A stretch of 17,437 bases of DNA from Verrucomicrobiota bacterium (GTDB taxonomy: Bacteria > Verrucomicrobiota > Verrucomicrobiia > Limisphaerales > AV2). Shown piece after piece: positions 2,314 through 17,437 of this stretch. The DNA is taken from the NCBI GenBank assembly GCA_003218935.1, contig QHPA01000087.1, positions 1-17,437 of the forward strand, written 5' to 3'. The notes under the pieces are model-generated. The model had not been told where the DNA came from, ran no database searches, and saw only the letters and a list, made by a program, of their open reading frames with translations. The translations under genes and the position numbers were made by a program. Every line of letters begins with the position of its first letter. The first letter of the stretch is position 1.

Positions 2314-3300
2314 CTACCGGATAGCCAGATCGACCACTTCGCCGGGCAGAAGTTTGAGTCCCGGCGGCAGACTGACCAGCACGGGCAGACCCAAAACCGG
2401 CGTGCGAAAATTCGATGGCGGCAGCAGGGCCGGGTCGATCGCTTCCATCTGGGTGCCGACCTGAAGGATTCTTCCTCGGCCTATGGCTCGCTTAAGCGAC
2501 CGGGCGCGAACTTCGACCGACATTCCGACGGCAGGTTCCACGATGATGGGTTGTCGGAGGTAGGCGACGATCCGATCGGCGGAGAGTGCGCTGAGAGTTA
2601 CGATCGGCTCACCAGAGGTAATCGCCTCGCCGGAGCGATGGTTGATCACGCTGACAATGCCGTCCACCGGCGCGCGCAGCGTGAGGGGACTCAACTCAGC
2701 CTCCGTCAACCGGAGCTTTTCCTCCTGCACCGCGATCGACGCCTGCAACACGTCCTGCGGCGCGGGCGGTTTTTGGCCTGACTCGGTGGAATCCTCACGG
2801 AGCTTCAGGCTCTGGAGATTTTGCTCCAGTTCGGCCACCAGTTTGGTTCGTTCCTCGACTTCGACCTGGAGTTTCTCCCGGGCCGTTTTCATCTGGTCAA
2901 AAACTTTTTCCGAAACGATTTTCTCTTTGAACAGTTCCGTGGTGCGGCGCAGATCATTCTCGGCGAGTTGCAGTTTGACGCGCGCGGTGGCCAGATCCAC
3001 CCGCTGCGACAGCCAATCGAGCCGGATGCGGTCGTAATTGAGCGCATAGCGCTGTTGATCGATGATGGGCTGCAGGTTGACCCGCAAAAGCTGGATTTCC
3101 GCCTGGATTACCGCGAGCGACGAGGCCAGAACCCTCGGATCGGTGGTGATCACTTGAGCGACGGGGTCTCCGGCCTTGACGAGCTGCATGCGTGCCAGAT
3201 TGAGCTGCGCCAGCACGCCCGGTTTGGGGCTGGTCACGTAAGCGGTGATCGGCTCCACCTGGCCCACGAGCGTCGGCGGCGTGACATACTGCCGCCACAT
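2314..3300 (-). CDS. HlyD-family periplasmic adaptor (membrane fusion protein)
   Basis: The 328-residue product from the ATG at 3300 shows the adaptor pattern: a first lipoyl half-motif at about 18-50 (VTSPKPGVLAQL), a long charged coiled-coil hairpin at about 57-203, a second lipoyl half at about 206-237 (LRAPVDGIVSVINHRSGEAI), then a beta-barrel-like C-terminus. Adaptors bridge an inner-membrane transporter to a TolC-like duct. The gene lies 26 bp after the DUF4956 stop and is probably the last cistron of the minus operon. Oddly, the N-terminus begins MWRQYVTPPTLVG with no signal peptide or membrane anchor. In-frame codons upstream do not encode a hydrophobic segment. An out-of-frame ATG at 3323 gives MNPLPVIRC before the frame would need to shift. 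A sequencing error, a real frameshift or an unusual export route are all possible. The family call is firm; start and localisation are uncertain. Confidence 0.85.
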   Translation of the reverse strand: MWRQYVTPPTLVGQVEPITAYVTSPKPGVLAQLNLARMQLVKAGDPVAQVITTDPRVLASSLAVIQAEIQLLRVNLQPIIDQQRYALNYDRIRLDWLSQRVDLATARVKLQLAENDLRRTTELFKEKIVSEKVFDQMKTAREKLQVEVEERTKLVAELEQNLQSLKLREDSTESGQKPPAPQDVLQASIAVQEEKLRLTEAELSPLTLRAPVDGIVSVINHRSGEAITSGEPIVTLSALSADRIVAYLRQPIIVEPAVGMSVEVRARSLKRAIGRGRILQVGTQMEAIDPALLPPSNFRTPVLGLPVLVSLPPGLKLLPGEVVDLAIR

Positions 3301-3326
3301 CGAATGACAGGCAAGGGATTCATCAA

Positions 3327-4013
3327 TCAGAGTTCGGATTCTTCTTCGGCTTTCAGTCCAGTCACACGCGAGACGCCTTGCATCGCGCGCAACTCGGTCA
3401 ACAAATCATCCATTCGGTCGGGGTCGCGCATCAGCAGCCGGTAGGAAAGGTCGGTGCCTTCATAGCCTTCATGCGAGCGCTGGCTGGCGCAAATGGCTTT
3501 GCGGCTGTGCCGATGCAACAGGTTCCGCAGCTCTTCCAGATCGGAGAGAGACCGCGACCAGTGCATATTGATAATCGTGTCGTAGCGGTGACGGGTGCCA
3601 AAAGAGGTGACCCAGAGATAAAAGATTACCGTGGCGGTCAACAGGCAGCCCACGATGGCGACCGGAAACCGTTGCGTGCCGCAGGCCATGCCCATGGCGA
3701 GGGACCACAGGATGTAGGTGGAATCGAACGTGTCGCGCAGAATGTTGCGGAAACGCACGATCGCGAACACGGCCATCATCCCGAATGCCGTCACCAGATT
3801 ATTCGCCATGACCGTCATCACCAGCGACACGATCATGGGGATGACAATGAGCGAGTTGACGAATGAGCGTGAGTAGGAAAGTCCGGTGTGTGTCAGCATG
3901 TAAACCCAGGCAATCGTTTGACCGATCACAAACGCCAGAAGCACGCTGAGCACCAGCGTGGGAATGCTCAGCGGCGCCGAAGCGTAATCGCTATGGTTTA
4001 GCCAGTCATTCAT
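3327..4013 (-). CDS. DUF4956 family inner-membrane protein
   Basis: The 228-residue protein has about five hydrophobic segments in its first 137 residues (roughly 14-36, 51-69, 72-87, 98-112 and 115-137). A soluble, presumably cytoplasmic tail follows. The segment FGMMAVFAIVRFRNILRDTF followed by LWSLAMGMACGT matches the DUF4956 signature (a 'VRFR' loop then a small-residue helix). The tail ends in an ACT/ferredoxin-like pattern with LLTELRAMQGVSRVTG. DUF4956 genes are commonly found beside VTC-domain polyphosphate polymerase genes in bacteria, as here: the VTC gene ends 42 bp upstream. The biochemical role is not established. In this cluster it is the only integral inner-membrane component, so it could be the partner of the HlyD-like adaptor. 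That is inference. Confidence 0.85.
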   Translation of the reverse strand: MNDWLNHSDYASAPLSIPTLVLSVLLAFVIGQTIAWVYMLTHTGLSYSRSFVNSLIVIPMIVSLVMTVMANNLVTAFGMMAVFAIVRFRNILRDTFDSTYILWSLAMGMACGTQRFPVAIVGCLLTATVIFYLWVTSFGTRHRYDTIINMHWSRSLSDLEELRNLLHRHSRKAICASQRSHEGYEGTDLSYRLLMRDPDRMDDLLTELRAMQGVSRVTGLKAEEESEL

Positions 4014-4055
4014 GGGATGCTTATGAAATTAAGCTATCTGAAACGCGGCCATTTG

Positions 4056-4871
4056 TCACGAAGGCAAACACGGCAAGTCGTTACGCCGGGTCTCTGGATC
4101 GTCCAGGCGCTCGCCCGCAAGCGCAAAGCTGGAAAATTTCTCCAATCCCATCAGCGTCACTCCGTCCACATATTTGGCCGCGCCGCATTGCATCAACCCG
4201 AAAACACGCACCAGTTCCCTGAACCAATCGGGAAAACGGTCGGTGAACTTCAGCTCCAGAACCACTTCTTTGCCAAAGACGATCACGGGCTTGCCCATGT
4301 CAAGGCTCAGGCGCGCCGCCGACTTCGGCTCTAATTTCACGTCGCGATCCATGGTCACCCGGACCGAGTTGTCTCGCGGACTGATCCAGGCTTCGCGCAG
4401 GTAGGCAATGTGCGCCTTGGGCTTGGCGCGCATATCCTGCATTAGCCTGCCGAAATTCTGCAGGAAGACCAGTTGCCGGGGGTCCCGTGAAACCAAATGC
4501 GCCGGATCGGGCAAATGCCCGGCCAGCAGCCAGTCCACCGCGTCCCGGCGCACTCCGCCGCGCTGCTTGGCAATGATGTTGTTCATTCGCCGTTTGATCT
4601 CAAAAAAGACGGGCGCCTCCGCCCGGTTGTCATAAAAACGCAATCGTAACTTGTAACGGTTTTTGTCCCCGTTGATCGTGCTGTGGTAAAGGCCCAGGCC
4701 ATCCGAGTCCAGGTACAGGCTGTGAACCGGGTAAGAGAAATTCGGGAGCGTGGCGCCGTATTCATCAATCTCCAGATAGCTGCCGACAAAATCCCGCACA
4801 GCCAGAGCGACGTCTTCTTTGATGATGTACTTCAACTCGAACCGCTGCTGCTGCATTTTGTCTTCGGCCAT
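4056..4871 (-). CDS. VTC-domain polyphosphate polymerase
   Basis: The product (271 aa from the ATG at 4871, MAEDKMQQQRFELKY) matches the catalytic VTC tunnel domain of yeast Vtc4, which makes polyphosphate from ATP. The tunnel's basic and acidic residues can be matched by eye: K14 (FELKY), R76 and R78 (KLRLRFY), K93 (FFEIKRR), K102, R159 (YLREAW), R171 (VRVTMDRD), E206 (VLELKF, the metal ligand) and K233 (AKYVDG). All candidates are present, so it should be active. There is no SPX domain and no membrane segment, as usual for bacterial members. A TTG at 4904 would extend the frame by 11 residues but is less likely; ATG at 4856 is also possible. It appears to be the first gene of the operon VTC-DUF4956-HlyD. 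The upstream side faces a 744-bp non-coding region where its promoter must lie. Confidence 0.9.
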   Translation of the reverse strand: MAEDKMQQQRFELKYIIKEDVALAVRDFVGSYLEIDEYGATLPNFSYPVHSLYLDSDGLGLYHSTINGDKNRYKLRLRFYDNRAEAPVFFEIKRRMNNIIAKQRGGVRRDAVDWLLAGHLPDPAHLVSRDPRQLVFLQNFGRLMQDMRAKPKAHIAYLREAWISPRDNSVRVTMDRDVKLEPKSAARLSLDMGKPVIVFGKEVVLELKFTDRFPDWFRELVRVFGLMQCGAAKYVDGVTLMGLEKFSSFALAGERLDDPETRRNDLPCLPS

Positions 4872-4965
4872 ACAAAGATAAATCGGCGTTCCATCTCCCG
4901 ACAAGGCGCCGCAACATCGTCACGCAACCGTCACAGCCTTGTCAAGTTTCGCTGCTGGCGGTGTC

Positions 4966-5083
4966 GGCGGGCAGTGTCTTAATTTGGTTGTAGCGGCGGT
5001 CTGTGACCGCCGAAAATGGCGCTCATAGAAGCGCCGCTACAATTCAGATTCTGAAATTAGGACACTGCCTGCCGGCGGGCAGT
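4966..5083. repeat. Nested palindromic element (REP/MITE-like)
   Basis: The outer arms 4966-4985 and 5054-5073 are inverted copies (18 of 20 match). Inside them, TTGTAGCGGCG (4988-4998) pairs perfectly with CGCCGCTACAA (5032-5042). Two inner hairpins nest within that: CGGCGGTC-TGT-GACCGCCG (4994-5012) and GGCGCT/AGCGCC (5018-5023, 5030-5035). A near-palindrome ACTGCC...GGCAGT closes the right side (5064-5083). It sits between divergent genes, where no terminator is needed, so a repeated extragenic palindrome or a non-autonomous miniature transposon fits better. Short open frames here are by-products of the symmetry. Confidence 0.75.
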
Positions 5084-5100
5084 GGAACAATTTGCATTTT

Positions 5101-5151
5101 GGTGGGGGCGAGCGTCCTCGCGAGCCGGCTCGTCAGGACCATCGCTCCACC
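5101..5151. repeat. Second extragenic inverted repeat
   Basis: The left arm at 5101-5126 (GGTGGGGGCGAGCGTCCTCG...GAGCC) and the right arm at 5127-5151 (GGCTCG...GGACC...CTCCACC) form an almost continuous imperfect hairpin of about 25 bp per arm with no real loop. It is unrelated in sequence to the palindrome at 4966-5083 and belongs to a different repeat family. There is no associated coding frame. Confidence 0.6.
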
Positions 5152-5615
5152 AAACTGTATCACTATCTGCCGACGGAATCGGTTGCTGCGAGCGTTCCCG
5201 CGCACATGCTCCAAACTGAGCGAGCGCGAATGCGTCGCTCGGCAGATTTCGTTGCCGCGCGCCTGGTCGGGCCCGCAAAACATGGCGTCGCTCCCGCCGT
5301 TTGGTTTCGACCGCGCACGAGCGGTTTTAGCAAATCGGCGCCGCACAGGGAGTTGGCAACGGACCGGCGTTCTGAAACCAGCATCCCGACCGTACCACGA
5401 AGGGCGGATTTTCGGGTTAGAACCCTTAATTGGCAGCATCAATTTTTCTATTGCCAAACTTTTGATTTTTGCTCAATTCTCGTTCGGTTTCCCAAACAAC
5501 CAATGTGCTTGGTCACACTGGCGGCCATCAACCCGGCTAACGGGTGAGTGCCCGCGGACTGGCTGGAGGGTGTGATCGCCACAAGGGCCAGGCACGGCTC
5601 ATGAGAGGACAGTTT
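5152..5615. other. Non-coding upstream region / probable leader of the secreted protein gene
   Basis: No credible gene was found. About 5152-5410 is GC-rich with several overlapping short frames and no family signal. About 5426-5510 turns AT-rich and is the likely promoter zone. Small symmetric sites are present: GGGTT-AG-AACCC (5414-5425), TTGGCA-N16-TGCCAA (5430-5435 and 5452-5457, operator-like spacing), and ACCCG-GCTAA-CGGGT (5531-5545, a leader hairpin). GAGAGGA at 5603-5609 is a good Shine-Dalgarno six bases before the ATG at 5616, which fixes the start of the next gene. No known riboswitch consensus could be matched. Confidence 0.45.
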
Positions 5616-8576
5616 ATGCGTAACCGAACGTATCAGTTCCTTCTTGCGTCTGCACTAACACTTGGCATCGCCTTCGCATGTCAGGCTGCCGTTTATCAGG
5701 AATCAGGTGGCCAGGTCGTAGTCGAAGCAGTGCATTTTGACTACCGAAACTTCGAATTCACCGACGCGGCGATTCCTCATCACTTCCATATTGTGCCCGA
5801 TGAGGACAACGTCACCAGTGCGGAACATCCATGGGGTGATGCCGGAGTCAACGTGATTGCCAATTCCCGCACCGGACGTTATGTGCAGATCGTTCCCGAC
5901 ATCGGCCAGAACAAAGGCAATTGCCCGACGTGTCCGAACGAAAACGTGGGGTTCCCGCCTTACGTGGAGTACAAGGTCAACATCACCACTCTTGGCCAAT
6001 ATCAACTCTATCTCCGACAAGTAGGTTTTGATGGGGGCAGTGATTCTTTCTTTGGTCAAATCCTGGAATTTGCGCCCCCCGGGCCCGGACCAAACTTTTA
6101 TCGTTATGCGCCAAATCCGGATTCAGGTGACTTTGCCGCGCTTCGAAATATCCCCAGCGACGTGAACACTGAAAACCAGGGTTGGAGCGGCTACGCTGCT
6201 CCGGCACCAAGAGTGGATGGCGGGGACAATATGACTGAGGTGCCCGCGGTTTACAACATCACCACACCGGGACTTTACACGATCCGCCTGAGCCAACGTG
6301 AAGACGGTGCGGCTGTCGATGCCATTATACTGCAGCTTGCCAGCCTGACGGCTCCCACAAATAGTCCCGCTCCGATTGAATCCGCGATCTCGACTGTCAA
6401 CCCGCCCTATGGGCGGGCGGTTGATCCCACTCCCGGACAACAGCAGGTTCCGCCGGACAACAACATCGGCTGTCAGCTCGTTAACGGGCCTACCAAAAAT
6501 GTCGCCACCAACACCATCCGCCTCATCGTTGACGGCGCCGCCGTCTCGCCCTCCATTACCCAGACCGGCAGCGTGACCTACGTGTCGTATTCACCATCGC
6601 CGCTGCTGACCTCGGGCAAAGCGATCAATTGGAGCGTCATTTTCAGCGACAACGGCACGCCGGCGACGTCGTACACCAATTCGTTTCCGTTCTCGGTTCT
6701 GCCTTATTCCCCCATTCCAACCAATTTCGTCGTTGCGCCGGGGCTGGTGGACACGACCAAACCCGGTTTCCTCATCCATCCCTATCAAACGGATGCGACG
6801 AGCAACCCGAACGCAGCCCAACCAAACACTCTGGCTTGGACCGAAGACCAACTCCGGGGGCTGCACGGCCCCAATGTCGCCGACCTCTCGGGCGCCGATG
6901 CAAATGGATTCTACGCGGAAACGAACGTGGTCAATTACGACCTCGCAGCCACGCCTTCGATCGCAGGCACAATTGCGGCGGATAATTTCGACGGGGACCT
7001 TCCGTTTCCCGGTATTCCCGGTCCAACAGCCCCGGACACAGGCAATTCCACGGAAGAAATTTTGACCTGGCTCGACTTGAAAGCGGGGGTTTATCGGATG
7101 GTCGTCAACAGTGATGACGGATTCAAAGTCTCAGTGGCGCCTGACCCGCGTGACACGGCCGGACTGGTCCTGGGTTCGTTTGACGGTGGTCGCGGATTTG
7201 CCGATTCTCTTTTTATATTCGTGGTCCCACAGGATGGCTTTTATCCTTTCCGCCTGCTCTGGGAGAACGGCAATGGTGATTTCACCGTTGCCGGTAACGC
7301 CGGCAGTCTGGAATGGTTCACCCAAAACGTATTTGGCAGGAAGGCACTGGTCAACAGCAACACCAACGGAACGCTGGCAACAAAGGCGTATCGCTCAGGC
7401 CCCAGTTATCCTTATGTCTCACGTTTCCTGAACTCCCTATTCGGGTTCACGATAGATTACAAGGACAATGGAGGGATCGTCCTAAACAAAGACACCTTCC
7501 AGGTCACTTTGGATGGGAGCCCGATAACGACCAGTATCGGAAAGACAAACGGAGTAACGACGATCAATTATGCGCCCGTGAGCGTTCTCGCCTCGAACTC
7601 CACACATACCATCGGGCTGGCTTTCAACGATTCGGGAGCCCCTGCCAAGACGTATACGCGCTCGATTGACTTCACCGTCCAGCCGTATGTTACGTTGCCT
7701 CCGAGCTACGCGGCAGGCACGCCGGACACCACCAAGCCAGGCTTCACGCTGCACGTATGGCGAATCGACGCGCAGGACGCCACCGGAGCCGAGATTATCG
7801 TGGACCCGAACGACACCGTTGCCCACGCGGAATTGGAACTGGCAGGCATGGTGACGAACACGGCCACGGGCCAGCCCTATACGAACTCTGCCATCCCCAA
7901 TCCAGCCGATGGCTCGTTTACTTATCTTGAGCCGACCGTGATTAACTACGATCGAGGTCCGGGCGTCACCTTGGGTCCTTTCGGCAACTTCCAGCCCGAC
8001 AACCAAATGCCTGGCATTTCCGGTTCGACCGACCTGGAAACCGCCAACGCCGCGATGGAGATACTCACGTATGTCACCCTGCCTGCAGGTCTGGTCCGGA
8101 TGGGTGTGAACAGCGACGACGGATTCCGCCTGTCGCCAGCGACCAGCGTCAGCGACTCCAGAAATGCGCTGACACTGGGGATCTTTGATGCCGGCCGCGG
8201 AGCCACAGACAGCATCTTTGACTTCTATGTCGCACAGGCCGGCACTTATCCAATGCGTCTGGTTTGGGACAATGGCGGCGGCGACTGTAACGTGGAATGG
8301 TTCTCCGTTCTTGCCGATGGCACGAAAGTCCTGATTAACGACAGCACCAATACGGCATTCAAGGCTTATCGGGCTGCAGCAACGGCGCAACTGCCTCCGC
8401 AAATCACTAGCGCCACGATCAGCACCGGCACCATCACGATCCAGTGGAGCAACGGCGGCACGCTGGAATCCACGACGAGCTTGAGCCCACCGATCAACTG
8501 GACCACCACCGGCAACAGCAGCGGCACGTTTTCCGGGGCGGCAACCGGAACAAAGTTCTATCGCGTCAATAAATAG
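5616..8576 (+). CDS. Large secreted protein with CBM-like domain and two Ig/PA14-like tandem units
   Basis: Translation from the ATG at 5616 (GAGAGGA Shine-Dalgarno, spacing 6) gives 986 aa. The frame is open back to 5544, but that extension would bury the signal peptide. Residues 1-24 (MRNRTYQFLLASALTLGIAF, cut after ACQA) are a Sec signal. Residues 28-250 form a CBM/malectin-like beta domain (GGQVVVEAVHFD ... LSQREDGAAVDAIILQ). Two tandem units follow (about 262-594 and 595-919). Each has an Ig-like part ending SVLPY/TVQPY, a TTKPGF motif (380-385, 705-710), and a PA14-like part with NSDDGF (498-503, 832-837) and YPxRLxWxNGxG. The C-terminus (about 925-986) is a short beta module ending FYRVNK, seen again in the 12548 gene. 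No catalytic site is recognised. It is probably a surface or secreted glycan-binding protein; the substrate is unknown. Confidence 0.8.
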   Translation: MRNRTYQFLLASALTLGIAFACQAAVYQESGGQVVVEAVHFDYRNFEFTDAAIPHHFHIVPDEDNVTSAEHPWGDAGVNVIANSRTGRYVQIVPDIGQNKGNCPTCPNENVGFPPYVEYKVNITTLGQYQLYLRQVGFDGGSDSFFGQILEFAPPGPGPNFYRYAPNPDSGDFAALRNIPSDVNTENQGWSGYAAPAPRVDGGDNMTEVPAVYNITTPGLYTIRLSQREDGAAVDAIILQLASLTAPTNSPAPIESAISTVNPPYGRAVDPTPGQQQVPPDNNIGCQLVNGPTKNVATNTIRLIVDGAAVSPSITQTGSVTYVSYSPSPLLTSGKAINWSVIFSDNGTPATSYTNSFPFSVLPYSPIPTNFVVAPGLVDTTKPGFLIHPYQTDATSNPNAAQPNTLAWTEDQLRGLHGPNVADLSGADANGFYAETNVVNYDLAATPSIAGTIAADNFDGDLPFPGIPGPTAPDTGNSTEEILTWLDLKAGVYRMVVNSDDGFKVSVAPDPRDTAGLVLGSFDGGRGFADSLFIFVVPQDGFYPFRLLWENGNGDFTVAGNAGSLEWFTQNVFGRKALVNSNTNGTLATKAYRSGPSYPYVSRFLNSLFGFTIDYKDNGGIVLNKDTFQVTLDGSPITTSIGKTNGVTTINYAPVSVLASNSTHTIGLAFNDSGAPAKTYTRSIDFTVQPYVTLPPSYAAGTPDTTKPGFTLHVWRIDAQDATGAEIIVDPNDTVAHAELELAGMVTNTATGQPYTNSAIPNPADGSFTYLEPTVINYDRGPGVTLGPFGNFQPDNQMPGISGSTDLETANAAMEILTYVTLPAGLVRMGVNSDDGFRLSPATSVSDSRNALTLGIFDAGRGATDSIFDFYVAQAGTYPMRLVWDNGGGDCNVEWFSVLADGTKVLINDSTNTAFKAYRAAATAQLPPQITSATISTGTITIQWSNGGTLESTTSLSPPINWTTTGNSSGTFSGAATGTKFYRVNK
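6399..7397 (+). repeat. Tandem protein unit 1 (Ig-like + PA14-like) within the secreted protein
   Basis: This encodes residues about 262-594. It shares landmarks with the next unit in the same order: Ig-like strands, a 'PY' end, TTKPGF, NYD, EEILTW, NSDDGF, DGGRG, then YPFRLLWENG. The match is at protein level and diverged; boundaries are approximate. Confidence 0.6.
7398..8372 (+). repeat. Tandem protein unit 2 (Ig-like + PA14-like) within the secreted protein
   Basis: This encodes residues about 595-919. Matching landmarks are TVQPY, TTKPGF, NYD, MEILTY, NSDDGF, DAGRG and YPMRLVWDNG. The offset between units is about 325-334 residues. It ends KVLINDSTNTAFKAYR, matching KALVNSNTNGTLATKAYR in unit 1. 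Confidence 0.6.
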
Positions 8577-12547: not shown

Positions 12548-15500
12548 ATGCGTGCTATCTTTTCTGATGTCAGATTTGGCATCATTGCACCGTGGCTGGG
12601 GATGTTATTCAGTCTGTTTACAGCCGCCGTCGCCGGTTCCGCCCAGACCCTTGGACAACGTCTTGAGATTCTGCCGCCAGCCAGTAATGACTGGGTGCGA
12701 CTCAGCAGCTCGAATGATTTAAACACCGTCATCACGTTGCAGGCGTCCTCGAACCTGCTCGATTGGCAATGGGTCGGCACCTTGCACGACGGCCTCTTCA
12801 ACTATCCCGATGCGGCTTCGACAAATTTCCCCAAGCGCTTCTATCGTTTATGGAGCAATGTTCGCGGGCCGACCAACGACTGGAAAAACCAGATTCTTTT
12901 CCCCGATGACTCCTTTCGATCATCAGCCGCTCCTTCCCAGGACATCAGTTGGGTTAAGTTCGCGATCCTCCTGAACGACCCGGTGCGCGTGTATTATCAA
13001 GACAGCGCGAAGTTCCTTTTCCACTACGATTTCGCGGTTCAACGGCTGGAACCCTTCGTCGGAATGGATCGAGCCGCGTTCGATGCCGTCTCACTCCATC
13101 GCGCGAACCAGCAGGTGGTCCTGGGCGCGATCTTGTACCCGCCCCTGGGCTACTCTGTCGAATACGGCATCCAGTTTGTGGGCCTCGACCCTTACACACC
13201 CGAAGAAATCATCCGCTGGTTCGATCTGGTCAAAGCCACTGTGTACGCCCCCGACGGCGCGGGCGTTTATTACGTGCCGACGTTCGAACAAAGCGTATCG
13301 GCGCTCACCAATGCCGAGTACCTCGCCTCTCGTGGCGTTCCGGTCGCGTCCACCGAACGGTGGGTCGCCCTCAACGATTGTTACTCGCCCGGCTGGGCGC
13401 TCGGACGCTTGAAACACTTTCCCGCCTCCGAAATCGACGCAGCCTTTGCGGACGGAAGGCTGCGACCCGAAGACATTCTGTTGACCGACGGCGTCCCCGC
13501 CAATACACCGGTCGTCGCCGGCATCATTTCGCTCACGCCCGCCACACCCAACTCGCATGTGGCGATCATTTCCCGGTCGTTCGGCATTCCGTTCGTTTAC
13601 CTCCCGGACGAAGTCGAACGGCTGCGCGTCCAACAACTGGCCGGGCACGAGGTGATCCTGCGCGCGATCGTCGATCCCCTGGGTTCCCATGTCGAGGTCG
13701 TGGACGTGGAAGGCACGCTAGACCCGGCGCTGAGGTCCGAGCTGCTGGCGCTGAAGGCACCACAACCGATCGAGTTTGCGCCCAGGCAATCCTTCGGCGC
13801 CATCAGCGCGTCCTGCGACACGCTCGCGCCGAGCGACATTCAATACTTCGGCGGCAAAGCGGCCAATTACGGCCTGCTGCGGCGCTCGATTGCCACCAAT
13901 TGTCCTCCCGCGATCGCTTTCTCGTTTGATTTGTGGGACGCGTTCCTGGACCAGACGCTTCCCGGCGGGACAACACTGCGAGGCGAGATTGCGCGGCGCC
14001 TTGCGCCTTACACAAATTATCCGCCGGACATCGTTTCCTTGAGAACCACCCTCACCGCGATTCGCGATCTGTTCACGCACACCGCCCATTTCAGCGCCGC
14101 GCAACAACAAGCCATCATTGACGCGCTCGCTGTCTTCAACCCGAATCGCAAAATCCGCTTTCGCAGTTCGACCAATGTCGAAGACAGCGAACATTTTACC
14201 GGCGCCGGCCTTTACGACAGTTTCAGCGGCTGTCTGCTCGATGACCTGGACGGTGACACGACCGGGCCGAGCCAATGCGATCCCGATGAACCGGATGAAC
14301 GTGGCGTCTTTCGCGCCATCCAAAAAGTCTATGCCAGCTTTTACAACGACGATGCGTTTCTTGAGCGCCTCCGTCATGGAGTGGACGAGGCTAAGGTCGG
14401 GATGGGCGTCCTGGTGCATCACTCCTTTCCGGATGAAGAAGAGCTCGCCAACGGCGTCGCCACGCTGCACTATGCCCTCACGTCCACTGGCACTGAGATC
14501 ACCAGCGGCGAACTTGTTACCCAGGCCGGCGCCACGTCCGTGACCAATCCCGACGGGAGCGCGATCCCCGAAGTGGTTTCTTTCGATCGGAATCCATTCA
14601 ACCAGACTCTCGTTCGGACGCAGCGCTCCTCGCTGGTGCCGTTGGGGGGTGGCTACGTGATGGATTGGCAGGGCGAGTATTGGGCCTTTATGCGCTTGTT
14701 CACCACGGTGGGCGACAGCTTCCATCAGTTCTATCCGGCGAAGAAAAATTTCTACCTCGATTTCGAATACAAGAAGGACGCAAATCTCGGCCTGGTCGTG
14801 AAGCAGGTCCGCCAAATCCCGGACCCGACGACCACGAACAGCACCGTTGCCTACCTCATCGACCGGCCCACCACCTACGGCGTGTTGCAGGGAGGATATG
14901 CCGACGTGTTTGCCAATCACCGGTTGAAGTCAATTTTAACGCTTCATACCGCCAACATGCGCCTCAGCGACTCGAACGTCGTCCACGGCCTTTATCGCGA
15001 GGCTACCTTCGAATGCGTCGAGAATGGTGTCCGCCAATCGTTGAGCGGTCCGATGAACTCCTGGCCAGGGGCCTCCAACTCCGTTGATGGTTCACTCAAC
15101 TATTGGACGACCGGCAGCGGCACGAACCAAAGGAGCTGGCGGCTGGACACCCAGTTCCCCAGGGCTGTGACCGGCTCGCAACCGCCCGTGCTGACGCAGC
15201 AGGATTTCGATCAGGATTCTTATTCTAAATTCCTCACCGTCAGCTACGCCGTCCCTATGCCGACGCCGGGAGGCGGCACGACAAACGAGACCATTCGCCT
15301 CACGCCTTTCCCGCAGTTAACGCCTGGCGCGCTCCTTCAGGAACGCACATGGACGAATACGAACGTTGCGGTCCAGACTTCCTTCTACTTGCTCCAGCCG
15401 CGAGGGGTTTGCGTCTGTACCGCGCCGATGATTCGCTTCGTCCAGACACGGATCACCGGGTTGAGTTCCGATCCCGTCGTCCTCACCAATTACTTTTCCC

Positions 15501-15697
15501 AAACCTATGATGCCGGGCGACACAACTGGGGCGAGGAATTCATTTTCGAACCCCGCCTGGAACCCGGACTACCGCAATCAACCCTCGCCGAACTCAATGC
15601 CGCCAACGTCCAGCTTCTGTACGTCCAGACCCATGAACGTACCAACGCGACGTTCTACGTATTAGGCCTGGATGGAATGTTCCGCGCGTTGCCGTGA
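12548..15697 (+). CDS. Secreted PEP/pyruvate-dikinase-like protein with glucan-water-dikinase-type domain order
   Basis: The ATG at 12548 gives 1049 aa starting with a signal peptide (IIAPWLGMLFSLFTAAVAG, cut near SAQ). The frame is open to 12239, but that part overlaps the methyltransferase gene. Residues about 35-100 are a beta module (LQASSNLLDWQW ... KRFYRLW). Around 318-350 a phosphohistidine-swivel-like segment contains TPNSHVAIISRSFGIPFVYL with H337. An ATP-grasp domain of the PPDK N-terminal type follows (about 430-760): FGGKAANYGLL (K437), RFRSSTNVED (R539, E545, D546), GAGLYDSF, KVYASFYNDDAFLERLRHG, VGMGVLVHHSF, and closing strand LVVKQVRQIP (752-755). The order His domain then ATP-grasp, and the GLYDS motif, resemble alpha-glucan water dikinase more than PEP synthase. 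Residues 760-1049 match nothing I know. It may phosphorylate a polymer or be a binding derivative; the substrate and ATP source are unresolved. Confidence 0.75.
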   Translation: MRAIFSDVRFGIIAPWLGMLFSLFTAAVAGSAQTLGQRLEILPPASNDWVRLSSSNDLNTVITLQASSNLLDWQWVGTLHDGLFNYPDAASTNFPKRFYRLWSNVRGPTNDWKNQILFPDDSFRSSAAPSQDISWVKFAILLNDPVRVYYQDSAKFLFHYDFAVQRLEPFVGMDRAAFDAVSLHRANQQVVLGAILYPPLGYSVEYGIQFVGLDPYTPEEIIRWFDLVKATVYAPDGAGVYYVPTFEQSVSALTNAEYLASRGVPVASTERWVALNDCYSPGWALGRLKHFPASEIDAAFADGRLRPEDILLTDGVPANTPVVAGIISLTPATPNSHVAIISRSFGIPFVYLPDEVERLRVQQLAGHEVILRAIVDPLGSHVEVVDVEGTLDPALRSELLALKAPQPIEFAPRQSFGAISASCDTLAPSDIQYFGGKAANYGLLRRSIATNCPPAIAFSFDLWDAFLDQTLPGGTTLRGEIARRLAPYTNYPPDIVSLRTTLTAIRDLFTHTAHFSAAQQQAIIDALAVFNPNRKIRFRSSTNVEDSEHFTGAGLYDSFSGCLLDDLDGDTTGPSQCDPDEPDERGVFRAIQKVYASFYNDDAFLERLRHGVDEAKVGMGVLVHHSFPDEEELANGVATLHYALTSTGTEITSGELVTQAGATSVTNPDGSAIPEVVSFDRNPFNQTLVRTQRSSLVPLGGGYVMDWQGEYWAFMRLFTTVGDSFHQFYPAKKNFYLDFEYKKDANLGLVVKQVRQIPDPTTTNSTVAYLIDRPTTYGVLQGGYADVFANHRLKSILTLHTANMRLSDSNVVHGLYREATFECVENGVRQSLSGPMNSWPGASNSVDGSLNYWTTGSGTNQRSWRLDTQFPRAVTGSQPPVLTQQDFDQDSYSKFLTVSYAVPMPTPGGGTTNETIRLTPFPQLTPGALLQERTWTNTNVAVQTSFYLLQPRGVCVCTAPMIRFVQTRITGLSSDPVVLTNYFSQTYDAGRHNWGEEFIFEPRLEPGLPQSTLAELNAANVQLLYVQTHERTNATFYVLGLDGMFRALP

Positions 15698-15965
15698 AGC
15701 TCTGTTCGGAGTTTAGTTCCGCTTGAGTTCCTTCAGCAGTAGGGTGAACGCCCGGAAGCGAGTCTTCCGCCGGTCAATGCGAGAAAGACAAAGGCGCGCA
15801 TTCGTAGTTCGTCCTCGTGGTTCTTACGCGCTTACATCCGCCGAGTAATCGGATGTCACTTCAAAAAATTCGGAAAAAAGCTGATGGTGGGTCGTCACCC
15901 CAGAAAACGTGTCTTGCCGCAGTGGCGTCAAACGATTAATCTCTACCGAGCACCGAATCTGGCAA
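15698..15965. other. Intergenic region upstream of the DUF1549/DUF1553 gene
   Basis: There is no gene here. Two stem-loops are visible: CGGAAG-CGAGT-CTTCCG (15753-15769) and ACATCCG-N9-CGGATGT (15834-15856). The first may mark the end of the 12548 transcript, though no T tract follows. The second lies 110 bp before the next ATG, within a locally A-rich stretch (15860-15880) that could hold a promoter. Confidence 0.4.
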
Positions 15966-17437
15966 ATGACCAGCCGTTCAAATATTCGTATCGGTTCGCC
16001 CCTCAAGAGGTTTGTTGTCATGGTGGCGCTCGGTTCTGTCGCGATGCTTACTATCGGTCGCGCTTGGGCAAGCGGGTCCGTGTCCGAACAGGGCGAAGAC
16101 CTGAACTGGTCGAAGGAGCGTGAGTTCTGGTCGTTCCGTCGGCCGCTTCCGCGGCCACAACCGGTCGTCAAAAACAAGCGCTGGCCCCGGCAGCGGCTCG
16201 ATTATTTCATCCTCGCCCGCCTCGAGGAGAAACAGCTATCGCCGTCGATTGAACCCGGCAAACGCACGCTGATCCGGCGTGCCACGTTTGATCTCACCGG
16301 ACTGCCGCCGACGCCGCAAGAGGTGGAGGCGTATCTGAAGGACGAAAGGGATAAAGCCTACGAGCGGCTGGTGGAACGGCTGCTGTCCTCGCCGCGGTTC
16401 GGGGAGCGCATGGCCAGCCTGTGGCTTCCTCTGGCGCGTTACGCGGAGGATCAGGCTTATCAGGTCGGCAGTGACACGAAATTCTTCTACCCGAACGCCT
16501 ACAAGTATCGCGATTGGGTCATCGCCGCGTTCAACCGCGACCTGCCTTACGACCAGTTTATCAAGCTCCAGTTGGCCGCAGACAAAGTGGAGTCCACGAA
16601 CTCTCAGAACCTCGCCGCGCTCGGCTTTCTCGGTCTCGGCCCGAAGTATTACAACCGCGGACGGCTCGACGTGATGGCCGACGAATGGGAGGACCGGGTT
16701 GATACCGTGATGCGCACGTTCCTGGGCCTCACGGTTTCGTGCTCGCGCTGCCACGACCACAAGTTTGACCCCATCACCATGGAAGACTACTACGCCCTGG
16801 CCGGTGTTTTCGCCAGCACCCGGATGATCAACCGGCGGCCGGAGGGGAAATCCGAGGACGACAAGACCGAAGCGCCGAAGATGGACCCGGACACGCTGCA
16901 CATCGTCGAAGACGGTGAAGCGCAGGATTTGAACCTGTTCATTCGCGGAAACGTAAATCGCAAGGGACCGGTCGTGGCGCGTCGCTTCCTGCGGGTTCTC
17001 TCGGAAAGCGAGCCGGTCGCGTTCAAGGACGGCAGCGGACGGCGGGAACTGGCTGAGGCAATCGCTGCCTCGAACAACCCGCTTGCGTCACGTGTCATGG
17101 TGAATCGCGTATGGGGCCTGTTCTTTGGCAAGCTGCTCGTGCCGACCGCCAGCAATTTCGGCCACTCGGGTGAGCCGCCGATCTATCCCGCATTACTGGA
17201 TGACCTGGCCGCGCGCTTCATACAGAACGGCTGGTCGGTCAAATGGCTCGTGCGCGAGATCGTCCTTTCCGCGACTTACCGCCAAAGCGCGGCCACGGAT
17301 GCCCGGAGCGCCGAGCGCGATGCCGCGAATGAACTCCTCTGGCGCATGAACCTACGCCGCCTCACCGTCGAGCAATGGCGCGACGCCGTCCTGTTCGTGT
17401 CCGGTCAGCTCGACTTCAGCGGCGGGAAATCCCTTGA
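15966..17437 (+). CDS. DUF1549/DUF1553 domain protein with CxxCH motif (partial, 3' end outside window)
   Basis: The frame is open from the ATG at 15966 to the right edge (490 codons and two bases). Residues 1-36 form a long Sec signal (KRFVVMVALGSVAMLTIGRA, cut after WA). DUF1549 follows: RLDYFILARLEE (78-88), LIRRATFDLTGLPPTPQEVE (102-121), SSPRFGERMASLWLPLARYA (141-160), RDWVIAAFNRDLPYDQFIK (182-200) and CSRCHDHKFDPI (259-270), a haem-c-like CxxCH. DUF1553 starts before NRVW (380-383), with LVPTASNFGHSGEPP and LSATYRQSA. Family members reach 700-1000 aa, so much is missing. They are abundant exported proteins of Planctomycetes and Verrucomicrobia, often paired with DUF1501 proteins and linked to polysaccharide use. 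This one lacks the N-terminal planctomycete cytochrome C (PSCyt1) domain. The Shine-Dalgarno is weak. Confidence 0.88.
   Translation, partial: MTSRSNIRIGSPLKRFVVMVALGSVAMLTIGRAWASGSVSEQGEDLNWSKEREFWSFRRPLPRPQPVVKNKRWPRQRLDYFILARLEEKQLSPSIEPGKRTLIRRATFDLTGLPPTPQEVEAYLKDERDKAYERLVERLLSSPRFGERMASLWLPLARYAEDQAYQVGSDTKFFYPNAYKYRDWVIAAFNRDLPYDQFIKLQLAADKVESTNSQNLAALGFLGLGPKYYNRGRLDVMADEWEDRVDTVMRTFLGLTVSCSRCHDHKFDPITMEDYYALAGVFASTRMINRRPEGKSEDDKTEAPKMDPDTLHIVEDGEAQDLNLFIRGNVNRKGPVVARRFLRVLSESEPVAFKDGSGRRELAEAIAASNNPLASRVMVNRVWGLFFGKLLVPTASNFGHSGEPPIYPALLDDLAARFIQNGWSVKWLVREIVLSATYRQSAATDARSAERDAANELLWRMNLRRLTVEQWRDAVLFVSGQLDFSGGKSL

Follow-up and report, generated by a model that had tools for sequence, protein, structure and literature searches.

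Does the gene at positions 12548-15697 (forward strand) of the window, by which we mean the whole 17,437-nucleotide stretch of contig QHPA01000087.1 analysed here (Verrucomicrobiota bacterium, assembly GCA_003218935.1), encode a working phosphohistidine enzyme that acts outside the cell? A first-pass annotation had described its product as an exported protein with the domain order of alpha-glucan water dikinase (GWD), in which the swivel domain bearing the phosphorylatable histidine precedes the ATP-grasp domain, and had suggested either a polymer-modifying enzyme or a non-catalytic glycan binder. We propose, with a probability of roughly 0.6, that the gene product is exported and catalytically competent as a phosphotransferase, and that it is a member of the PEP-synthase/PPDK/RPH/GWD superfamily in which the swivel precedes the ATP-grasp domain. 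The sequence itself supports the signal peptide, the domain order, a swivel histidine that never varies and an ATP/Mg site that is both complete and invariant. To our knowledge the enzymes of this superfamily (PEP synthase, PPDK, RPH, GWD and HpeHI) all act inside cells or plastids, and a conserved, apparently intact exported family raises the question of where its ATP comes from and which target it modifies.

The landmarks recorded at first pass are all found in the 1049-residue translation, namely the motif TPNSHVAIISR with H337, a GGK ending at K437, RSS at 539-541, VED at 544-546 and GLYDS at 554-558, followed by about 290 residues downstream of the ATP-grasp domain. The succession of signal peptide, swivel and ATP-grasp is likewise borne out by the translation, by Pfam and by profile alignments. 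PPDK_N matches residues 433-638 (E=1.5e-13; score 51.2 bits, cut-off 27), and of the two profiles named earlier as a check this one is clear-cut, whereas PEP-utilizers, over residues 322-352, reaches E=8.9e-4 but stays under its curated cut-off (19.2 against 23.1 bits). Profile alignment to the sister family described below places the end of the ATP-grasp domain near residue 757, beyond the Pfam match, so that E740, Q753 and R755 are included. The NCBIfam PEP-synthase models match inside the ATP-grasp domain far under their cut-offs (TIGR01418, 30.6 bits against 739.75). Among PDB sequences the single protein matches PEP synthase alone (E=0.27), and the family profile matches the PEP synthases 2ols (3.4e-6) and 9dae (0.0053). 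The order of PEP synthase, that is ATP-grasp, swivel and C-terminal PEP-binding barrel, is reversed here, and the C-terminal region has no convincing Pfam or PDB match.

Of 7998 candidates scored against residues 100-1049, at least 1963 reach E<=1e-3, and identity is 54-93% in the 120 listed. Searching GTDB genomes for the patterns FTGAGLYD and V[YF]ASFYND gave 167 sites that code for a relative; the best 80, which we retained, come from Verrucomicrobiota, Planctomycetota (Phycisphaerae, Sedimentisphaerales) and Myxococcota (Sorangium, Polyangium, Archangium). The main alignment comprises 87 rows, 76 of them from these loci and 10 from the 120 listed relatives, besides the window protein itself; 41 of the rows were used for Pfam scans. 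Left out were one locus with 10 internal stops (L077), one with a masked stretch (L085) and two incomplete at a contig end (L073, L044); the stops of L077 (8001-10858) lie in frame across the match as read, and it is a degenerate or frameshifted copy. PPDK_N is found in 41 of 41 members and PEP-utilizers in 38, both at E up to 1. Planctomycete and myxobacterial matches start at residues 101-113 (the exception, at 214, being the masked locus), which delimits a common core of about residues 108-1030; the module at residues 35-107 is an addition in verrucomicrobial members. No paper on the exported family appeared among the matches listed in open-licence PubMed Central, and this swivel-first family is apparently unstudied.

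H337, G435, G436, K437, R537, R539, S541, N543, E545, D546, E740, Q753 and R755 are each invariant in the 87 aligned members, and residue 738 is Asp in 84 and Glu in three. Since catalytic residues are identical in 87/87 and at least 1963 relatives fall under E<=1e-3, the family match is not due to chance. The sister-family counterparts of eight catalytic positions (H260, K352, R446, R448, E454, E628, Q641 and R643) are each present in 28/28 aligned rows. By alignment, K437, R539 and E740 would correspond respectively to Lys22, Arg117 and Glu297 of RPH. Passages of a study of that enzyme (PMC4844700) describe the Lys22 variant as without activity and the Arg117 variant as having lost rifampin phosphorylation, and describe Glu297, a Mg ligand, as replaceable without loss of activity. 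Loss of ATP-grasp residues across homologues, named at first pass as the sign of a pseudoenzyme, was sought and occurs in none of the 87 members. As judged from these alignments, there is strong constraint on the ATP site and the histidine. An exported protein that merely binds a nucleotide or a glycan, with no phosphotransfer, would fit a site with little ATP, the dockerin-type tails of some members and the lack of a known substrate; such a pseudoenzyme is nevertheless unlikely, because the eight positions are intact in both families, including a histidine for which a binder has no need. Invariance of the catalytic residues, His337 and K437 among them, thus argues against a dead glycan-binding protein, and the non-catalytic option of the earlier description is disfavoured.

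The sister family is defined by a distant match, a 647-residue protein from Pontiellaceae (L005), which contains the core without the C-terminal region. Of 7997 candidates scored with it as query, at least 4627 fall under E<=1e-3. As this number and that of the window family are both lower bounds, they are not closely comparable, and the two lists of relatives may overlap. Like the window family, the sister family contains the segment that we call domain X, the swivel and the ATP-grasp domain, colinear up to residue 757 (E=2e-60), with the same invariant catalytic residues; by the same hydrophobicity threshold it too is exported, 81 of 116 N-termini passing. Unlike the window family, it lacks the C-terminal domain, and in place of GGK its alignment (28 rows, being 27 of 120 listed proteins and the query) shows G-A-K in 19 rows, G-S-K in eight and G-V-K in one. 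Its database names include 'PEP/pyruvate-binding domain-containing protein' and 'pyruvate,water dikinase', the latter being probably misleading.

Within domain X, K137, H159, Y242, P244, E247 and Q248 are invariant in the window family. K137 and H159 correspond to K60 and H84 of the Pontiellaceae protein and are invariant in 87/87 members here and in 28/28 sister rows, and the counterparts of E247 and Q248 are Glu in 22 and Gln in 24 of the 28. Against PDB sequences the best match of domain X has E 0.11 and that of the C-terminal domain E 1.2, with no convincing PDB or Pfam match for either; Pfam matches for both are scattered over one or two members, the strongest being GH43 (0.0017, in 1 of 30). 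We consider domain X a candidate acceptor site, because beside the swivel and the ATP-grasp domain nothing else is retained in the exported sister family, and because it carries an invariant Lys and His in both. This conservation bears on a further alternative, in which His337 autophosphorylates and AMP and phosphate are released with no acceptor modified, so that the protein scavenges or senses extracellular ATP. A complete ATP site and neighbours that give no substrate context agree with such an ATP consumer or sensor, as do RPH variants with a broken acceptor site, which, according to passages of PMC4844700, keep the ATP half-reaction. However, the invariant K137/H159 counterparts in both families suggest an acceptor site and no conserved partner gene lies nearby, so that we find this alternative quite improbable.

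The C-terminal domain appears to be separable. At one locus (L004, 306-3804, reverse strand) the gene is apparently naturally split into a catalytic open reading frame (ORF) of 775 residues, comprising N-terminal module, domain X, swivel and ATP-grasp, and a next ORF of 389 residues with its own signal-like N-terminus, which aligns with the window protein over residues 781-1027 at 22% identity (E=1e-8). Therefore, this domain can occur as a separate exported partner.

For comparison with GWD we made use of a verrucomicrobial locus (L096, G288:C474, 1168-11611, from the same genome as L007), in which a true GWD-type gene adjoins a second gene, which we take to be PWD-like from the motifs of plant PWD; starch synthase and GH57 genes adjoin the pair. 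The GWD is a 1056-residue ORF with Ig_N_CWD1, GWD1_pHisD (8.3e-37) and PPDK_N, and the PWD-like ORF (3461-6952, reverse strand) has 1164 residues with an N-terminal AP_endonuc_2 domain, GWD1_pHisD above cut-off and PPDK_N. For a GWD-type query, at least 2541 of 7996 scored candidates had E<=1e-3; PF22973 is present in all 120 listed, 25 of which were aligned. The window family is colinear with bacterial GWD from swivel to ATP-grasp (hhalign E=3.2e-12) and with the PWD-like ORF (E=2.5e-11), whereas PEP synthase (two rows) aligns over the ATP-grasp domain only (E=3.7e-6), which upholds the earlier contrast with ATP-first enzymes. As one local alignment was reported per comparison, no more than one part of a protein with the opposite order can align, and the whole-chain advantage of GWD and the PWD-like ORF stems in part from their agreeing domain order. 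For the ATP-grasp domain alone the ranking was RPH-type 4.6e-12, GWD 5e-10, PWD-like 5.7e-10 and PEP synthase 1.3e-7, a rough ranking since the profiles were of unequal depth (25 rows for GWD, one for PWD-like, two each for the PEP-synthase and RPH-type ATP-grasps, the latter being two ATP-first proteins with a C-terminal swivel, so called by layout). The swivel alone scored 42.0 against GWD and 43.0 against 21 PEP-synthase/RPH-type swivels (means of 40.3 and 41.7 with eight random rows). A specifically GWD-like swivel, suggested by a two-sequence PEP-synthase alignment (8.3e-7 against 0.0077), was rejected once the 21 swivels were used. The sister-family swivel scored 43.6 with PWD-like and 34.1 with GWD, over 21.7 with PEP synthase/RPH.

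The motif GAGLYDS or a close form of it is found in 119 of 120 listed members, 108 of 120 sister proteins and 119 of 120 GWD-type proteins. Its placement relative to xWAS separates these: it comes first in all 116 window-family proteins with both motifs (5 unscored) and in 94 of 94 of the sister family (26 unscored), and is placed likewise in two PEP-synthase rows, whereas RSxSNxED...GAGLYDS follows xWAS in 113 of 113 GWD-type proteins with both motifs (P0245-P0364; 7 unscored). The GWD motif is hence displaced within the ATP-grasp domain relative to PEP synthase, the PWD-like ORF and the exported families, and on our reading of these counts placement after xWAS would be a GWD-defining feature. 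GWD1_pHisD (PF22973) reaches E<=1 in only 3/41 members (best 0.018). In whole-genome searches, short of its cut-off of 27 bits, it falls on the swivel of members from genomes G306 (16.1 bits, E 0.028) and G304 (14.3 bits, E 0.18), and at E up to 10 it weakly matches 5 of 14 control genomes, with none above cut-off; in the phylum sample none of the 288 genomes gave a match, but the positive control was silent there too. Neither Ig_N_CWD1 (PF23166) nor a starch-binding Pfam family is among the 22 families listed for the 41 members, or in the window protein, and no starch or glycogen gene is among the ten window ORFs scanned with Pfam.

Like the window family, GWD has the swivel before the ATP-grasp domain, GAGLYDS and presumably phosphohistidine chemistry; it differs in Ig_N_CWD1, GWD1_pHisD, the nearly constant lack of a signal peptide and the placement of the motif. 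The PWD-like ORF is also swivel-first, with RSSSNAED...AGAGLYES early in the ATP-grasp domain, but differs in GWD1_pHisD above cut-off and AP_endonuc_2. RPH and PEP synthase/PPDK have the ATP-grasp residues and swivel histidine in common with the window family, but place the ATP domain first, use a different acceptor domain and, in the PEP-synthase and RPH-type rows, have SFAG followed by other residues instead of GAGLYDS. According to a 2026 review (PMC12892837), no experimental structure of GWD or PWD was to be had. On these comparisons the window protein most likely works like a swivel-first dikinase but is not a GWD member, since GWD1_pHisD is weak, the other GWD parts are absent, a signal peptide is present and the ATP-site motif is placed otherwise; the domain order claimed at first pass thus stands and membership of GWD does not. 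A true GWD relocated outside the cell and phosphorylating an extracellular alpha-glucan would account for the domain order, the colinear alignment, the motif in common with GWD and the PWD-like ORF, and the weak swivel matches in two genomes. We regard it as very improbable, given that those matches are sub-threshold and of a kind seen in control genomes, that the swivel ties between GWD and PEP-synthase/RPH-type, that the ATP-grasp domain is nearest to RPH-type, and the absence of GWD-specific domains and starch genes noted above. The swivel-first order hence occurs in bacteria in several forms (the window family, the sister family, bacterial GWD and the PWD-like ORF), which bear on the origin of plant GWD and PWD. 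Other forms were seen in passing: in Sorangium (L089, 1-2850, forward strand) a core resembling X, swivel and ATP-grasp lies, by eye, behind lamin-tail-like domains, and a 678-residue swivel-first form (L113) occurs in a one-contig genome of the window's class.

Export was scored by a simple hydrophobicity threshold on database starts, with 120 proteins listed per group and non-Met starts uncounted. Of the 112 listed relatives that begin with Met, 78 have a hydrophobic N-terminus, compared with 1 of 105 GWD-type proteins, and, together with the signal peptide in the translation, this upholds the earlier claim of export. With the most hydrophobic start chosen, a biased choice, 74 of 77 loci pass. 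In all 10 myxobacterial loci the hydrophobic stretch is, by eye, followed by a lipobox-like Cys; a scripted lipobox pattern matches six of these, the remaining four having LWAC, and 15 among all 77 loci. The window protein has no twin-arginine motif, and the pattern is rare among relatives (0 of 120 listed; 5 of 77 loci by a looser pattern), from which we infer export in the unfolded state, without bound ATP. Nine of the 41 members have a Dockerin_1 match (E up to 1), and the tails read as dockerin-like belong to planctomycete rows. Directly after GAGLYDS stands an insert, GCLxDDLDGDxxGPSxCD, with C562, D565 and D568 in 87/87 members, D570 in 84 and C577 in 85, which might form a disulfide-closed, calcium-type loop; it is absent from five sister-family rows shown, and a sixth row was not matched by the script pattern. 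The Cys pair in 85/87 counts for export, because such a pair is expected outside the cytoplasm. A cytoplasmic enzyme whose N-terminus is an anchor in the membrane or a wrongly assigned start, as the 34 of 112 relatives under the threshold would allow, is most improbable in view of the myxobacterial lipobox-like Cys, the dockerin-type tails, the Cys pair and the contrast with GWD-type proteins.

Returning to an exported phosphotransferase, we envisage the following mechanism. The protein would be exported by Sec and probably fold after export, and must therefore rely on ATP encountered after export, perhaps released by lysed cells. By analogy with the superfamily mechanism, the ATP-grasp domain would bind ATP, His337 would accept the beta-phosphate, leaving AMP and, upon hydrolysis, phosphate, and the swivel would turn to a third site and pass the phosphate to an acceptor. 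Domain X may provide this third site, the C-terminal domain may be an addition for targeting or substrate binding, and the acceptor may lie on an extracellular or surface polymer; a modifying enzyme, as first suggested, would be compatible with this. Extended to the extracytoplasmic phosphohistidine dikinases of Verrucomicrobiota, Planctomycetota and Myxococcota in general, this yields a tentative and rather doubtful proposal, that they phosphorylate a surface or environmental polymer with ATP from outside, with X as a new acceptor domain and the C-terminal domain as a new substrate-binding domain. If true, it would be an outside counterpart of starch phosphorylation. Several points weigh against an exported phosphotransferase. 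ATP is scarce outside the cytoplasm, which makes its supply the weak point of the proposed mechanism, and no ATP source was found in the surroundings of the gene. No neighbour family occurs in more than six of 81 loci (80 and the window, several with short flanks), and context therefore gives no substrate. The N-termini of 34 relatives fall under the threshold, perhaps through wrong starts; the disulfide is putative, and two of 87 members lack C577. Finally, 76 rows of the 87-row alignment came from the pattern search, so that the FTGAGLYD and V[YF]ASFYND stretches are partly conserved by construction, though neither the eight catalytic residues nor the other active-site positions listed above fall within these patterns.

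The coordinates of the gene and its parts are given in Table 1.

Table 1. The gene and its predicted parts, in positions of the window
Feature	Position	Strand	Basis and remarks
Whole gene	12548..15697	+	ORF and translation; 1049 residues plus stop
Sec-type signal peptide, residues 1-32	12548..12643	+	Translation; cleavage likely after GSA (residues 30-32), site predicted
N-terminal module of verrucomicrobial members, residues 35-107	12650..12868	+	Match starts in loci of the other phyla
Domain X, residues 108-280	12869..13387	+	Common to sister family; candidate acceptor-binding domain, putative role
Swivel / phosphohistidine domain, residues ~281-410, limits estimated	13388..13777	+	PEP-utilizers match
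His337, predicted phosphorylated histidine	13556..13558	+	87/87 aligned members
ATP-grasp domain, residues 420-757	13805..14818	+	PPDK_N and profile alignments
Lys437, putative counterpart of RPH/PPDK Lys22	13856..13858	+	87/87; alignment to PEP synthase
Arg539, putative counterpart of RPH Arg117	14162..14164	+	87/87; alignment to PEP synthase
Family-specific insert, residues 559-585, Cys562...Cys577 with Asp565/568/570	14222..14302	+	Alignment
Glu740, Gln753, Arg755, second half of ATP/Mg site	14765..14812	+	Each 87/87
C-terminal domain, residues 760-1049	14825..15694	+	Separate signal-bearing ORF in L004

The spread of the family is patchy, four of 288 genomes of the window's phylum containing a member, its own genome counted and one being of the sister type. 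In its own draft assembly (3.83 Mb, completeness 82%) the window protein gives one full match and one weak partial match (1e-5, residues 59-151), and PPDK_N is found in this gene and one short fragment. Several copies occur in some assemblies, for example L047, L050 and L070 in one. In a quick tree of the 87 rows, with Shimodaira-Hasegawa-like approximate likelihood ratio test (SH-aLRT) values as the only support, 29 planctomycete rows fall to one side of a branch (SH-aLRT 99) and 10 myxobacterial rows to one side of another (SH-aLRT 77), and the 36 verrucomicrobial rows require two changes, 12 rows being without group. From these groupings, descent within the family appears mostly to follow phylum.

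Operon context was dropped as a functional clue on account of the neighbour counts given above; sulfatase, heparinase II/III and GFO_IDH_MocA genes are neighbours in a few loci. A functional link to the CotH secreted kinases was also rejected. CotH is present in 18 of 20 genomes that contain a member, at up to 39 matches per genome; on four chromosome-sized contigs (L017, L029, L037 and L057) the nearest CotH among the matches listed lies about 100 kb or more away, a bound too loose to serve as a test. In the window itself a PSCyt2/PSD1 (DUF1549/DUF1553) gene at 15909-17435 (forward strand), truncated by the window end, follows downstream. Between 720 and 4904 (2314-4904 on the reverse and 720-2273 on the forward strand), VTC (polyphosphate polymerase type), DUF4956 and HlyD genes share a strand and an outer-membrane efflux (OEP) gene lies opposite. 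The forward-strand gene at 5544-8576 encodes a 1010-residue exported-looking protein with GLEYA-like matches, all sub-threshold, the tail of which by eye resembles part of residues 60-105 of the 12548-15697 product.

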